From Acidobacteriota bacterium (GTDB lineage Bacteria > Acidobacteriota > Terriglobia > Terriglobales > SCQP01), in contig JAKASR010000025.1 of NCBI GenBank assembly GCA_021818955.1, positions 1-52,888 on the forward strand: a DNA stretch of 52,888 nucleotides. The letters are read 5' to 3'. Positions 40,873-46,918 of this stretch are shown here, in pieces (position 1 is the first letter of the stretch; every line of letters starts with the position of its first letter). The notes under the pieces were generated by a model. That model was not told where the DNA came from, ran no database searches, and was given only the letters and a program-made list of their open reading frames with translations. A program made the translations under genes and the position numbers.

Positions 40873-43173
40873 TTAGCGCGGCGAGGCGGGGATGTTGACC
40901 AACACCTTAATGGAGTTTTGATTCCCGGCGGCATCTTCGATGCGCAGCATCAGCAAATGCTCCCCGGGCGGGAGATGGAGGGCGCGCACGGTGAAGGTTT
41001 CATGGCGCGAATCGATGATGCCGTCGTCGGAATACAGCAGGCGCCAGGGGCCGGCATCAATGGAATCGGCGGCACGCACCAGCACCGTTCCCGGATCCCG
41101 GGCGGAAAAACGCGCCACCGCCTCGCCGGGGCGGGGCTGCCGGGTGGAGAGCAGGCGCAAGCTGGGGGCAGCGGTGTCGAGCGTGGCCAGCGGGCTGATC
41201 GCTTCCGCGCGCCGCGTCTGGGCAGGCGGATTGGAAGGCGCGTCGCTGGCCACCAGCTTGAAGCGGTACACGCCATCCGGCAAGCGCTGGCTGCCAATCG
41301 ACAGATGGCTGACATGCAAATTGTGTTGCAGCAATTTCCAGCCGGTTTCGCCCTCCGCCTGGAAGTAGACCTGATAGCGCAAGCGATCGCCATCGGGATC
41401 GGCCGCCTTCCAGCTCAACTGAATGCCGTGCACCGGGCGGGTCTGATGGGCGGCAAAGGCGGCGATCGGCACCATTTGCCCCTGCTCCGCCTCGTGCATC
41501 ACCTCCGCCGAAATCGCGGACGGGGGAGTCGCCGGAGGAGCGGTGGAAGAGAGCGCGGAGCGCACGTGAAACCAGAGAATCTCCGGGCTGAGATTGACCG
41601 GTAGATAAGGCACCACCACTTCGTCGAGATAGGGGGAGCCGGCGGCGGAGCCCACAAAGGCGGCCTTCCACTGAATGTAGCGCGCGGCGGGGCTGAGGAT
41701 GCGCTGTCCCAAAGCCACCGCCGCCCAATCGCTCCAGGTGCGGTCGGGCCGGGGCGAATTGCCGCTGCGCGTATAAATCGTCAAATGGCTGCTGGGCGCC
41801 AGGCGGCCCAGCCATTCCAGATCGCCCCAATGGGAGATCTCACCGGTGTCTTTGACCGGCGAGACGAACCAGCCGCGAGTAGCGACGCTGCCGCCGAGGC
41901 GGTATAAATCGCCGCGATTGGCCGTAGTCGCCAGCAGGTAGGGACCGGCGCGCAGCAGCCGGGTGGTTTCCTCCTGATTGGTTTGCACCAGGATAGTGGA
42001 CTGGCGATTGGGCCCCAGGCGATAGATGCGGCCATGATGGTCGGTGGAAACCAGCAGGCCTTGGGTTGTGGGCAACACGTCATCGGCATCCTGCGATTTC
42101 GAGCTCCACAACGTATCCACCGCCTGGTTGGAGGTAATGCGATACACGGCGCTGCGCATGCCCAGCAGGCGCGGCACCGGGCTGAAGTTCGGCGTCGCCA
42201 GCGAGGGGACGCCCGCCGCGGCGGCGGGTTGAGAGTTTTTACCAGAGGCGTGAGCCCCCGGCTTCGGCGCCAGATGCGAGCCGCTGGAAGCGGCAATCGT
42301 CACGGTTTCCGGCGGCGCGGAAATCTCGCCGGCCAATTCCGAGCGCGGCAGCATGGGGTTGGGCATCATCGGTCCCGGCGCGCCCTGCGCGGTGACGTAG
42401 ATACTGCCGTCGGCGGCGACGGTAAGGCGGTGAATTTCCTCCAAGGGCGAGTTATAAAGCACGAAGGCGCGGCCAGCGGGAGTAATGCGAAAGATCAGCC
42501 CGCCGGGCTCGGAGCCGGCCAACAGATCGCCATTGGGCGCGGCCGCCAGCGCCATGACCTGGCTTTGCCGCGTATCGAAAAACCTGCCGCCCTGCATGGG
42601 GCCGGTAACGCGGTAAATTTCGCCGCGATCGCCGGTGCCCACATAGAGCGTGCGTCCGGTAAAGGCCAGCGCCCAAATATAGTGTTCGTGCGGATCGAAA
42701 TAGACGGAAGCATGCCCATCGGGAGCGATGCGATACACCTTGCCGTCAGGCGAAGTGCCGGCGTATAAGGCTCCGTCGGGGCCGACGGCGAGCGCGAAGA
42801 CCTCCGGTTGCGGGGCAGTGAACCACAGCGCATGGCGCGGCGCAAGGGTGCGCGCGGCGGCCAAGGCGGCGGGGGTGAGGCGATAGATGCGGCCTTCATG
42901 ACCGGTGCCGAGAAAAATATCGCCCTGGTGGTCGGCGGCAACGCTCCAAATCAAGGCTTGCTGGGTATGAAAAACCAGGCGCAGATCGGGAGCCAGCCGC
43001 AGGCGGCCTTCGCGGCTGAGTGAAAGGCCGTGCATGGAGCCATGCGAAAACTGGCGAAAGCTGGCCATGCGCCAGAAAACGGTATTGACCGCGGCGATCG
43101 GCAAGCCGCAGGCCAGAACAAGCAGGGTGGCGCGCAACCAAGACCAGTTGCTTCCACGGGGGGGTAAGTTCAT
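40873..43173 (-). CDS. Membrane-anchored beta-propeller protein with C-terminal Fn3/Ig-like region
   Basis: The 766-residue product has an N-terminal membrane helix (about 14-34), then repeated propeller blades (e.g. LALAVGPDGALYAGTSPDGKVYRI, ALAFTGRTLYVGTGDRGEIYRV, LAAAPNGDLLAGSEPGGLIFRI). Each has a strand, PxGxLYxGT-type loop and GxIYR. The C-terminal part (about 560-760) has beta-sandwich features: WKAADPDGDRLRYQVYFQ, LPDGVYRFKLVASD, FSARDPGTVLVRA, LPPGEHLLMLRIEDAAGNQNS. The protein probably faces the periplasm and binds protein or glycan; no catalytic motif seen. It lies 30 bases after the S55 peptidase gene and is likely co-transcribed. Confidence 0.75.
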   Translation of the reverse strand: MNLPPRGSNWSWLRATLLVLACGLPIAAVNTVFWRMASFRQFSHGSMHGLSLSREGRLRLAPDLRLVFHTQQALIWSVAADHQGDIFLGTGHEGRIYRLTPAALAAARTLAPRHALWFTAPQPEVFALAVGPDGALYAGTSPDGKVYRIAPDGHASVYFDPHEHYIWALAFTGRTLYVGTGDRGEIYRVTGPMQGGRFFDTRQSQVMALAAAPNGDLLAGSEPGGLIFRITPAGRAFVLYNSPLEEIHRLTVAADGSIYVTAQGAPGPMMPNPMLPRSELAGEISAPPETVTIAASSGSHLAPKPGAHASGKNSQPAAAAGVPSLATPNFSPVPRLLGMRSAVYRITSNQAVDTLWSSKSQDADDVLPTTQGLLVSTDHHGRIYRLGPNRQSTILVQTNQEETTRLLRAGPYLLATTANRGDLYRLGGSVATRGWFVSPVKDTGEISHWGDLEWLGRLAPSSHLTIYTRSGNSPRPDRTWSDWAAVALGQRILSPAARYIQWKAAFVGSAAGSPYLDEVVVPYLPVNLSPEILWFHVRSALSSTAPPATPPSAISAEVMHEAEQGQMVPIAAFAAHQTRPVHGIQLSWKAADPDGDRLRYQVYFQAEGETGWKLLQHNLHVSHLSIGSQRLPDGVYRFKLVASDAPSNPPAQTRRAEAISPLATLDTAAPSLRLLSTRQPRPGEAVARFSARDPGTVLVRAADSIDAGPWRLLYSDDGIIDSRHETFTVRALHLPPGEHLLMLRIEDAAGNQNSIKVLVNIPASPR

Positions 43174-43203: not shown

Positions 43204-45012
43204 TTAATCTTTGATCGTCACGGCGACCACCTGGCTTCCGGAAACCGCGTAGGGCAGCGGCCGGCTGTGATAGCGCAGCAGGATGGACATCGGCTGGCTG
43301 TGGAGATCGCCGCCGATCGCGTCGGGAGCGGTCAGAATGCGGGTCAAGGAGGGGGGCGCCAGCGGGAATTCCTCGCCCTGCAGGCGATAACTGGCGCCCG
43401 GCAGCAACACCCGCGCGTAGATCCGGTTATTGCGGTGCAGGCGATTCAAATGCCGCACCAGTTGCGCCAGGCTGCGCGGCGAATCCGAGCCCGCCAGCAA
43501 TCCACGCAAGGCGGAAATGCCGACGCCGCCGCCGACCACGATGCGCAGCGGTCCGGGCGCGACGCTGTAGGGCAGGCGCAAATGGATGGGCAACCGGCGC
43601 TGTTTGCCTCCGCTCAGGCGCAGAGTGGCCAGCAACTGCAGGCGCGAGCCGGGGTGCACCACCTGGCGATCGCTCCACACCTGCACCAGCTGCGCGGTTT
43701 GCAGGCGATTGGTCGAACGCACATCCAGATTGACGCCTTCCAATCGCACATCCGGCAACTGGCTGCCATAGAGCTCCACCAGCGGCGCGGCCACCGCCAG
43801 CGCCGCCTGGGCGGGAACATTCAAGTCGCCGGAATACAAATTTTCAATCCGCACCGGGGGACTGTTCGCCAGGCGGATATCGCCGGAGACCGAGATGGTG
43901 GAGGGGCCCAGCGCGCGCTGGGTGGCGCTCAAGGTGGCCAGCACCCCCATATTGGCCAGCAGCGGCGTCAGGAAGGGATGATTGACCACTTCAAAATGAA
44001 ATTGCCGCTGCTCGCCGTCCTGACTGTGCACGGTGATGGCGATGGGAATCATCGCGGCGCGGCCGCCAAGCTGGCCGTAAATGCCCTGGCTGCGATCCTG
44101 GCGGATGACGCCCAAGGGCGCGCCGGGCACATCGATTTTGAACGAGCTCATATACCCGGGCATGAGCGCGATCACGTTGGCCTGACTGAAGGGAAAAGCG
44201 GTGGCCCCGGCGGAAAGAAAGCGATGTCCGCAGGCGAAGACCTGGCCTTTTTGAATGTAGGTCACGGTGCAATCGGCGGAGACGCCTAAATCGCCGCGCA
44301 TCAGTTGCACGCTGATCATTTGACCCGGCTGCAAATGCGCTTCGGCAGCGGGAACGGGCGCCAGTTCGCCCCCGGCACTGGAGCCGCCCAGCATCGGGGT
44401 CAGGTGCAACGCGCGAAACTGCGGCAGCAATTGCTGCATGACGTCGGCGCTAAAGCCGGCAAGCATCAGCGTGGTGGTCGGACGCGGCAGGGATGGATTG
44501 GATAAAGCCGGGCTGGAAGCATTCGCATCCAGCGGCGAAGCCGGCGTCAAAAGCGAGGCCAGCAAACCCCGGTTGACGGTTGCCCGGGCGGAGGCGTGCC
44601 GACGCCGCGCCCGGTGCGCCTGATGCAACATTTGTTCGATCGGGGTGATGCCGGCAATCGCCGCCTTGGCGAAAGGATAGCCCAGCGCCACCGCGCCAGC
44701 CAGCTTGCCATCCAGATATACCGGGCTGCCGCTCATCCCCTCAATCACACCGGTTTGCGCCAGCGGGCCGCCACTGAGCTTGGCCCAGATCACCGCTTGC
44801 CGGGGCCCCATATTGCGCACTACGCCCAGGATGCGCACTTGGAAGCGCGACCGGTGATTGCCGGAAAAAACCGTCAGCCCATAGCCCACCATGCCGGGCC
44901 GGATGCGGTCGAGCGGAAAGAACGAATTGGCCGAAGCGGCCGGGGCGGATTTCTGGCTCCAGCCCCATGGACTCAAGCCAAGCAAAAGAAGCAAGCAACT
45001 AAAGCGACGCAT
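43204..45012 (-). CDS. Exported SpoIVB-type (S55) serine peptidase-like protein
   Basis: A signal peptide (1-19, ending WGWSQ) precedes an S55 domain. The nucleophile motif is GMSGSPVYLDGKLAGAVALGYPF with Ser96 as probable catalytic Ser, and the CGHRFL segment (FACGHRF) fits the conserved CGHG region of SpoIVB. A C-terminal beta-rich part of about 300 residues has no recognised family. In Bacillus, SpoIVB cleaves SpoIVFA to start pro-sigma-K processing; in non-sporulating Acidobacteria its substrate is unknown. It is directly followed by the beta-propeller gene and preceded by an S41 protein, so the three probably act together in the envelope. Confidence 0.85.
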   Translation of the reverse strand: MRRFSCLLLLLGLSPWGWSQKSAPAASANSFFPLDRIRPGMVGYGLTVFSGNHRSRFQVRILGVVRNMGPRQAVIWAKLSGGPLAQTGVIEGMSGSPVYLDGKLAGAVALGYPFAKAAIAGITPIEQMLHQAHRARRRHASARATVNRGLLASLLTPASPLDANASSPALSNPSLPRPTTTLMLAGFSADVMQQLLPQFRALHLTPMLGGSSAGGELAPVPAAEAHLQPGQMISVQLMRGDLGVSADCTVTYIQKGQVFACGHRFLSAGATAFPFSQANVIALMPGYMSSFKIDVPGAPLGVIRQDRSQGIYGQLGGRAAMIPIAITVHSQDGEQRQFHFEVVNHPFLTPLLANMGVLATLSATQRALGPSTISVSGDIRLANSPPVRIENLYSGDLNVPAQAALAVAAPLVELYGSQLPDVRLEGVNLDVRSTNRLQTAQLVQVWSDRQVVHPGSRLQLLATLRLSGGKQRRLPIHLRLPYSVAPGPLRIVVGGGVGISALRGLLAGSDSPRSLAQLVRHLNRLHRNNRIYARVLLPGASYRLQGEEFPLAPPSLTRILTAPDAIGGDLHSQPMSILLRYHSRPLPYAVSGSQVVAVTIKD

Positions 45013-45112: not shown

Positions 45113-46333
45113 TTAGGCAGGAGCGGCGAGCGCCCGCGGCAGCGGCTTGGCGCCTAGAGTTTGCAAGGCGCGGTTCAGCTGTAAATCCTGTTTGGGCGGC
45201 AACACGCCAAGGGGGGACACATCATCGTCGGGCAGCGCCCCGGGATAGCGCACCTGTTCAATGTTAGGGGTAATGGCGGTATCTTCAATGGCTTGATGCG
45301 CCGGGGTGTAATATTTCGCCACGGTCAGCAGCACGGCGGTACCGTCGCCCAGCGGAAAGAGCTTCTGCACCGCCCCCTCGCCGAAGGTTTTGTCGCCCAC
45401 CACATTGCCCCGGTGATTATCCAGAATTGCCGCGGCCAGCACTTCGCCGGGACCAGCCGTGCCGGCGTTGACCAGCACCGCCATCGGCAAGGAAGGCCAA
45501 CGCACGCGCTGCGGCTGCGCTTCGACGAGCTGTTGCGGCATGGTGCGTCCCGACAGAGAAGTAATTACGCCCTGCTTCAGAAACAGGTTGGCTGCAGCTT
45601 CGGCGGTGTGATAGCTGCCGTCCCCGCAGCCGCGCAGATCGAGCACGAGTTGGTTCGCGCCTTGCCGGGTTAAAGCGGCCAGATGCGCCGCCAATGCACG
45701 CGCTCTTCCCTTCCCCAGGTCGGGGAGGCGCAAATAGGCGATATGGTTTTCAAGCAGTTGCGCCAGAATCGGCCGGTGCGGCAACAGCACCCGTTGCAAG
45801 TTCAGCGTTTTGGGCTGGACATGGCGCATGAAGATGACGCGCACTTGCACGCTGGTGCCGGGCGCGCCCACCAGCAGATGGCGGATTTCAAACAGCGATA
45901 GACGCTCCGTATGCTGGCCGGCAATCAACTCGAGCAGATCGCCGCGGTGCAAACCGGCGGTGTCGGCGGGGCTGCCGGGCACGACATCCACAATGATCGC
46001 CTCGCCGCGCTTGGAAACGACCAGACCGGTCGAGCCCTGGGGATCGGGCTGAGCCAAAGCCGCGCGATAAGCGCGATATTGCCGGGTGGTGAGGTAGCTG
46101 GAACCGGCATCGAGCGAATCAAGCAGACCATGCAGCGAGCCATTGGCGACGGCATGCATATTCGGCTTGGTCACATAATCGCGCTGGATGTAAGACAGCA
46201 CTTCCGCATAGACGCCGAACTGGCGATAGGGGCGTGAATGCTGGCCATGGCTGGCCATGGCCATTCCGGCGACAATAAAACCGGCCAGCAGCAAAGAACC
46301 AAAAAACAGCCACCAGGTGGTGCGATGACGCAT
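45113..46333 (-). CDS. S41 (CtpA-like) family protein lacking catalytic Ser and Lys
   Basis: The 406-residue product has an N-terminal membrane helix (7-26), a helical region, a PDZ domain (about 101-185, with VVSKRGEAIIVDVVPGSPADTAGLHRGDLL) and an S41 core with LVLDLRGCGDG and VVGDKTFGEGAVQ. In active enzymes the core reads SASASE and FGKGTVQ. Here the nucleophile position is Gly294 (in GTAGPGE) and the general-base Lys position is Glu319 (FGEG); both were checked in the codons. The Gln after it is kept. It is probably a non-catalytic scaffold. Start ATG 46333 follows GAGG at good distance; the frame from 46378 lacks a site. It is the first gene of an operon with the S55 peptidase and propeller protein. 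Confidence 0.88.
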   Translation of the reverse strand: MRHRTTWWLFFGSLLLAGFIVAGMAMASHGQHSRPYRQFGVYAEVLSYIQRDYVTKPNMHAVANGSLHGLLDSLDAGSSYLTTRQYRAYRAALAQPDPQGSTGLVVSKRGEAIIVDVVPGSPADTAGLHRGDLLELIAGQHTERLSLFEIRHLLVGAPGTSVQVRVIFMRHVQPKTLNLQRVLLPHRPILAQLLENHIAYLRLPDLGKGRARALAAHLAALTRQGANQLVLDLRGCGDGSYHTAEAAANLFLKQGVITSLSGRTMPQQLVEAQPQRVRWPSLPMAVLVNAGTAGPGEVLAAAILDNHRGNVVGDKTFGEGAVQKLFPLGDGTAVLLTVAKYYTPAHQAIEDTAITPNIEQVRYPGALPDDDVSPLGVLPPKQDLQLNRALQTLGAKPLPRALAAPA

Positions 46334-46410
46334 ATCAATCCTCGTGCAGGCGGCGGCAGCAGCCGCGCTGCCCCCCACTGAATACGATTATAATCCGCCG
46401 CTGGATGAAG

Positions 46411-46656
46411 GCACGGCCGCTTTTACTTTTAGGCGCTGACGCTTTCGCCAAGGTCCGGCCGAAACCGGACGCAGGGCGAATACTCATAGCTGCCGGGCAT
46501 TGCCAGGCGCAATTCCTGCGGAATTGCTTGGTATTGTCGTTCATAGGCACGGGACCTAATAGGAACCCCGCGCTTCGGCCTGCGAGCATGGCTGGAGGCA
46601 ATTTCTCCGAAATTGCCAATGACGAAAACTGCTGCCCGACGCGTCCGTTAACGCTT
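46411..46656 (+). repeat. Dispersed repeat, copy 12, with one 32-base unit
   Basis: Module A starts at GCACGGCCGC-TTTTACTTTT (the first arm is partly lost), then the second hairpin, one palindromic GCAATTCC-TGC-GGAATTGC unit at 46509-46527, module B, and the alternative GGCAATTTC-TCC-GAAATTGCC hairpin, closing with GTTAACGCTT. It lies between the divergent S41 gene and dnaA. Confidence 0.88.
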
Positions 46657-46918
46657 GAGGCTTCGAAAACCCGCTATTCGCGCCCGCTTACCCATTGATC
46701 AATGGCCGCATGGCGGCGCATTTGCTGGCCGGGATGGATGGCGTTTCGCGTATTGCTTGAAGTTTGGGCGGACAATTGACTGTTCTCACAGCACGCGCGC
46801 AAAAAAAAATTTTTCGGCTTGCAAAATTATTTCCGGGACGTTAAAAACATACCTCGTCGTTAATTTTTGAAAGTGAGTGGATGCGAGGGGCGCGGCCCTC
46901 GACATTAAAAAAAGATTT
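46657..46918 (+). promoter_or_regulatory. dnaA upstream region, AT-rich, without DnaA boxes
   Basis: About 260 bases with a run of A9T5 at about 46801-46814 and AT-rich sequence to 46870, which fits a promoter and leader for dnaA. The A/T tract resembles the one upstream of dnaB. TTATNCACA-type boxes were looked for and not found, so this does not look like oriC by eye. No promoter hexamers are clear enough to place. Confidence 0.4.

Follow-up and report, generated by a model that had tools for sequence, protein, structure and literature searches.

The window analysed here, a stretch of 52,888 nucleotides from an Acidobacteriota bacterium, carries on its minus strand a gene (45113..46333, ATG start) for a 406-residue protein that has the S41 fold without the catalytic residues, as seen from the open reading frame and from Pfam and structure matches. 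We refer to it as pseudo-CtpA; its parts and the two genes next to it listed below are on the same strand. The reading frame, the Pfam matches, and the structure model give the order hydrophobic helix, N-terminal helical region, PDZ domain, and S41 core. The hydrophobic helix (residues 3-26; 46256..46327), evident in the sequence and in the secondary structure of the model, is a probable membrane anchor or signal in which no lipobox was seen, and the protein is presumably exported. It is followed by an N-terminal region (residues 36-94; 46052..46228) that matches the dimerisation region of CtpA/CtpB and is conserved as in canonical paralogues, by a Pfam PDZ domain (residues 98-166; 45836..46042), and by a Pfam S41 core (residues 198-359; 45257..45742; 1.6e-36). 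Alignment places Gly77 (46103..46105) against a His that is invariant in canonical paralogues, CGDG (residues 236-239; 45617..45628) where these have NPGG, Gly294 (45452..45454) at the catalytic Ser site, Glu319 (45377..45379) at the catalytic Lys site, and Gln323 (45365..45367), which is retained. The next gene (43204..45012), recognised by Pfam and from the loci of relatives, encodes an S55-like protein of 602 residues that adjoins pseudo-CtpA in this lineage only; beyond it lies the gene for a 766-residue beta-propeller-like protein (40873..43173), which the loci identify as the S55 partner throughout the order. In the window (46333-46877) and in one related genome (G001), the S41 operon and dnaA are arranged divergently, which the other loci read do not show.

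The AlphaFold2 model of pseudo-CtpA has a pLDDT of 81.6 and was built on 46 sequences, with much of residues 23-57 poorly predicted. The closest solved structure is H. pylori CtpA (E 3e-36, 29% identity), whose S300, K325, and Q329, taken from the title of 9ku3, where the mutant is named, align with G294, E319, and Q323 at the same spacing of 25 and 29 residues. The sequence-only reading had placed the lost Ser and Lys at Gly294 and Glu319, and this alignment shows that it was exact; its statement that the PDZ domain, the core, and the downstream Gln are kept is likewise borne out by the Pfam matches and by the wide retention of Gln among relatives. The loss extends further than had been noticed, since neither the NPGG loop nor the active-site His (residue 77) remains. 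Pseudo-CtpA thus has the PDZ domain and S41 core fold of an active S41/CTP protease and lacks its Ser-Lys dyad, its active-site His, and its NPGG loop. It also scores below the curated cut-off of TIGR00225 (NCBIfam), at 179.3 versus 218.6 bits.

We pooled 165 non-redundant pseudo sequences and 35 canonical paralogues, all from Acidobacteriota, in one alignment. The comparisons at the Ser and Lys positions are partly true by definition, since the two groups were sorted by these residues themselves: Ser is replaced by Gly in 162 of the 165 (the remaining three have Ser, Asn, and Gln), and the Lys position holds Asp (58), Glu (53), then Ala, Val, Ile, Arg, Met, Ser, and others, with Lys in a single sequence (L305), while both residues are present in 35 out of 35 canonical paralogues. 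The His at residue 77 is found in 0 of 165 pseudo and 35 of 35 canonical sequences, the GG of NPGG in 14 and 35, and Gln323 in 155 and 35, respectively; the ligand-loop Gly103 of the PDZ domain is present in 161 of the 165. In canonical paralogues the His is part of an LDPHS motif, and by this motif, rather than by structure, we take the column to be that of His84 of P. aeruginosa CtpA, which in the active state comes close enough to the Lys for a hydrogen bond (PMC11021448). Mutation of the Gln in the same enzyme has only a minor effect (PMC11021448). The distant proteins sampled are dead as well: L184 keeps Ser and has lost Lys, and L305 keeps Lys and has lost Ser. Each may be an intermediate or a reversion, and neither retains Ser and Lys together. 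The alignment of the branch shows no fixed new nucleophile or base, and repurposed catalysis was dropped as a candidate because no nucleophile is newly conserved. As judged from these alignments, pseudo-CtpA is almost certainly catalytically dead.

An S41 match was found in all 60 genomes of relatives searched, nearly all of which carry two kinds of S41 gene: an orthologue of pseudo-CtpA, scoring >200 bits, and a paralogue that is longer and scores lower. Ser has been replaced by Gly in 58 of the 58 orthologues from these relatives, and Lys by Glu, Asp, Val, Ile, Gln, or Ser. When 84,980 species genomes were scanned, 80 loci came back, almost all under the names Acidobacteria or Terriglobia; every one of the 80 has Gly at the Ser site and none has Lys. 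A cultured Terriglobales species, Silvibacterium bohemicum, is represented among the loci. Within the phylum, ∼190 of 396 genomes (counted from the table) score E 1e-75 or better, the range in which every sampled protein was dead. Many of the genomes with G numbers are metagenome-assembled (MAGs). One record titled Rhodanobacteraceae (L169) holds an acidobacterial pseudo-CtpA gene beside an acidobacterial penicillin-binding protein (PBP) gene, and its contig is probably mis-binned.

In a tree of 44 pseudo and 20 canonical sequences, which is independent of the residue-based sorting and whose root was not set by an outgroup, the two groups are split by a branch of length 1.19 with 100/100 support. 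The dead copies share common ancestry and form one ancient branch of the CtpA (S41) family across Acidobacteriota. They are also under purifying selection: Comparison of the two species in the genus of the window gives pseudo-CtpA a dN/dS of 0.14, close to the 0.13 of DnaA and the 0.14 of DnaB, at synonymous sites that are near saturation (dS about 1). A local loss or a decaying gene is ruled out by this ratio together with the Gly in 58 of 58 relatives and 80 of 80 loci. The proposal of a maintained pseudo-protease is therefore strongly supported by 165 relatives, by the branch, and by dN/dS, and the orthologues with intact Ser and Lys that would have pointed to a local loss were not found.

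For the 16 genomes that have both copies, we compared conservation along the protein. The N-terminal region is the best-kept part (identity 0.60 in pseudo versus 0.63 in canonical copies; ratio, 0.95), followed by the PDZ domain, which is somewhat less conserved than its canonical counterpart (0.50 versus 0.57; ratio, 0.87). For the loops and core that surround the active site the ratio is 0.63-0.79, and the LDLRxNPGG loop has an identity of 0.51 in pseudo versus 0.81 in canonical copies. Constraint has shifted away from the site that cuts and towards the part that assembles, as expected of a scaffold.

The genes surrounding pseudo-CtpA differ among lineages, and the recurrent ones are cell-wall genes. 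In basal lineages, an EnvC-like gene lies directly upstream in 12 of 19 loci and at 1.2 kb in one more; among the canonical loci of the deep sample, the count is 0 of 15. In both sets the flanks are ∼1.4 kb, and some are cut by contig ends. The EnvC-like neighbour has an M23 (LytM) match whose final HLH zinc motif is altered in 13 of 13 cases, and its LytM domain is degenerate. The M23 domain of E. coli EnvC likewise is without the final HLH zinc motif. In the window's relatives, the search for EnvC gave only M23-type matches, none of them adjoining S41.

Clustering of neighbours at 134 non-redundant pseudo-CtpA loci gave a different association. An orthologous class A PBP (Transgly and Transpeptidase domains) is encoded on the same strand directly downstream (≤600 bp) in 75 of these loci, and in 86 of 134 if intervening genes are allowed up to 4.5 kb; one locus (L181), whose neighbour is a monofunctional transglycosylase, was left out of the count. 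Related genomes contribute many of the 134 loci, so the numbers count loci and not independent events. A class A PBP lies downstream of S41 in all 17 genomes searched of a second family, and the 14 searched genomes of the window's own family yielded only weaker PBP paralogues and no PBP orthologue.

The S55 neighbour had been read as the partner of the dead S41 protein. The assignment to S55 stands in part: The Pfam match is real, at 27.6 bits, and covers only positions 126-191 of the 210 in the profile, which correspond to the Ser half of the domain; a full domain with the His half first was not seen. The GMSGSP Ser motif is present in all 27 S55 rows aligned, and this motif and the half that holds it are shared with SpoIVB; orthologues of the protein occur in L200-L219 and L251-L270. 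The two proteins differ in that Ser94 of the motif precedes an invariant His263 (ACGH), whereas SpoIVB has the reverse order. When the sequence is rearranged with the His half first, the Pfam score rises by ∼2-4 bits in five of five second-family orthologues and the match extends to profile positions 12-193. A circular permutation of the domain is only suggested by this gain, since the His half alone did not find SpoIVB in a search of the PDB. The structure model of the protein, made from three sequences, has a pLDDT of 37.

S55 is present in 48 of the 60 relatives, and it follows S41 directly only in G000, G001, G003, and G013, a set made up of the window's genus plus two further genomes of the family; in the majority of the remaining relatives, S41 and S55 lie far from each other. 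In 17 of 20 loci of the order (L251-L264 and L266-L268), by contrast, the propeller gene lies downstream of S55 on the same strand, with or without S41. S55 and the propeller are therefore the conserved pair, which S41 joined in one lineage, and gene order in relatives rules out S41-S55 as a conserved unit. The S41-S55 pairing proposed in the sequence-only reading fails the check that this reading set for it, a differing gene order elsewhere, and a linked site-2 protease, which it suggested looking for, was not found on the window's contig: The M50 genes of site-2-protease type in this genome are all on other contigs.

What has been retained is the fold, together with the N-terminal region used for assembly and a PDZ domain that still has its ligand-loop Gly; a scaffold in the periplasm would explain this most simply. 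On balance, we think it somewhat probable that pseudo-CtpA, as a member of an ancient dead branch of CtpA, serves the cell-wall machinery as a non-catalytic PDZ scaffold in the periplasm. The protein would most likely be exported and membrane-anchored, with its N-terminal part for assembly and its PDZ domain kept; these two parts would bind the C-terminal tails of cell-wall proteins, and would hold or position them instead of cutting. The partner in the ancestor was probably an amidase activator of the EnvC type. Within Terriglobia the gene for the dead CtpA came to be linked with the class A PBP, and in part of the window's family, where the 14 genomes gave no PBP orthologue, it stands ahead of the S55-propeller pair. 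More tentatively, the ancestor of much of Acidobacteriota may already have had a dead CtpA next to an EnvC-like protein whose LytM domain was dead too, the two forming a purely non-enzymatic complex controlling wall cutting, from which the dead CtpA passed to the class A PBP in Terriglobia; we regard this history as possible but doubtful. The neighbourhoods demonstrate linkage between the dead CtpA and wall genes, not interaction.

A role as regulator of the active CtpA paralogue, through mixed oligomers or through substrates held on the PDZ domain, relies on the same kept parts as the scaffold. It would fit with the presence of both copies in nearly every genome searched, with the dimer-forming N-terminal region being the best-kept part, and with the observation that CtpA is a multimer with one active subunit per pair (PMC11021448). 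However, the pseudo and canonical lineages are far apart (branch 1.19) and the short flanks read at the deep loci contained no canonical copy, and we consider such regulation rather unlikely. Distinctly less likely is an envelope signalling pair of dead S41 and S55, comparable to CtpB and SpoIVB in Bacillus sporulation. The two genes do adjoin on one strand in the four genomes listed above, but this linkage does not reach beyond some members of a single family. In other lineages the propeller accompanies S55, and wall genes accompany S41. None of the M50 genes shares the window's contig, and the likeness of S55 to SpoIVB is confined to the Ser half. That pseudo-CtpA could still be a peptidase through other residues is hardly credible. 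It retains the fold, Gln323, and commonly an acidic residue at 319, but the residue at 319 varies, from Asp and Glu to Ala, Val, Ile, Arg, Met, Ser, and others. Since His, Ser, Lys, and the NPGG loop are all missing and no other nucleophile has become conserved, cutting is very unlikely.

Among known systems, the closest are H. pylori and P. aeruginosa CtpA, the best PDB matches, which share the domain order and fold of pseudo-CtpA; they differ from it in that Ser, Lys, His, and NPGG have been lost in pseudo-CtpA and that it falls below the TIGR00225 cut-off. The N-terminal region of CtpA has a role in dimerisation (PMC11021448). The gene order of the basal lineages of Acidobacteriota, envC then ctpA, is also that of P. 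aeruginosa (PMC12569750), where the two form an envC-ctpA operon and the product of ctpA degrades wall hydrolases (PMC12569750, PMC6050968). B. subtilis CtpB, whose PDZ domain governs access to the site (PMC3808539), has the PDZ-S41 architecture in common with pseudo-CtpA; unlike pseudo-CtpA it is active, and there is no sporulation context here. We found no earlier report of a dead CtpA branch in the open-access literature searched. IRBP and other S41-fold non-peptidases resemble pseudo-CtpA in having the fold without protease function, although they are eukaryotic and have a different architecture.

Bacterial S41 proteases are known to regulate peptidoglycan enzymes by degradation. A branch without the catalytic parts beside the same kind of genes across the phylum suggests that a platform function can outlive cutting, and it cautions that proteins annotated as "S41 family peptidase" in Acidobacteriota are often not peptidases. 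At 30 loci (L064, L104, L112, L117, and 26 others), the genes for the dead CtpA, the class A PBP, and a PASTA protein follow one another in this order on one strand, possibly as a wall-synthesis unit with a sensor-like PASTA partner. A gene for MltG (YceG) lies near pseudo-CtpA in five distant loci.
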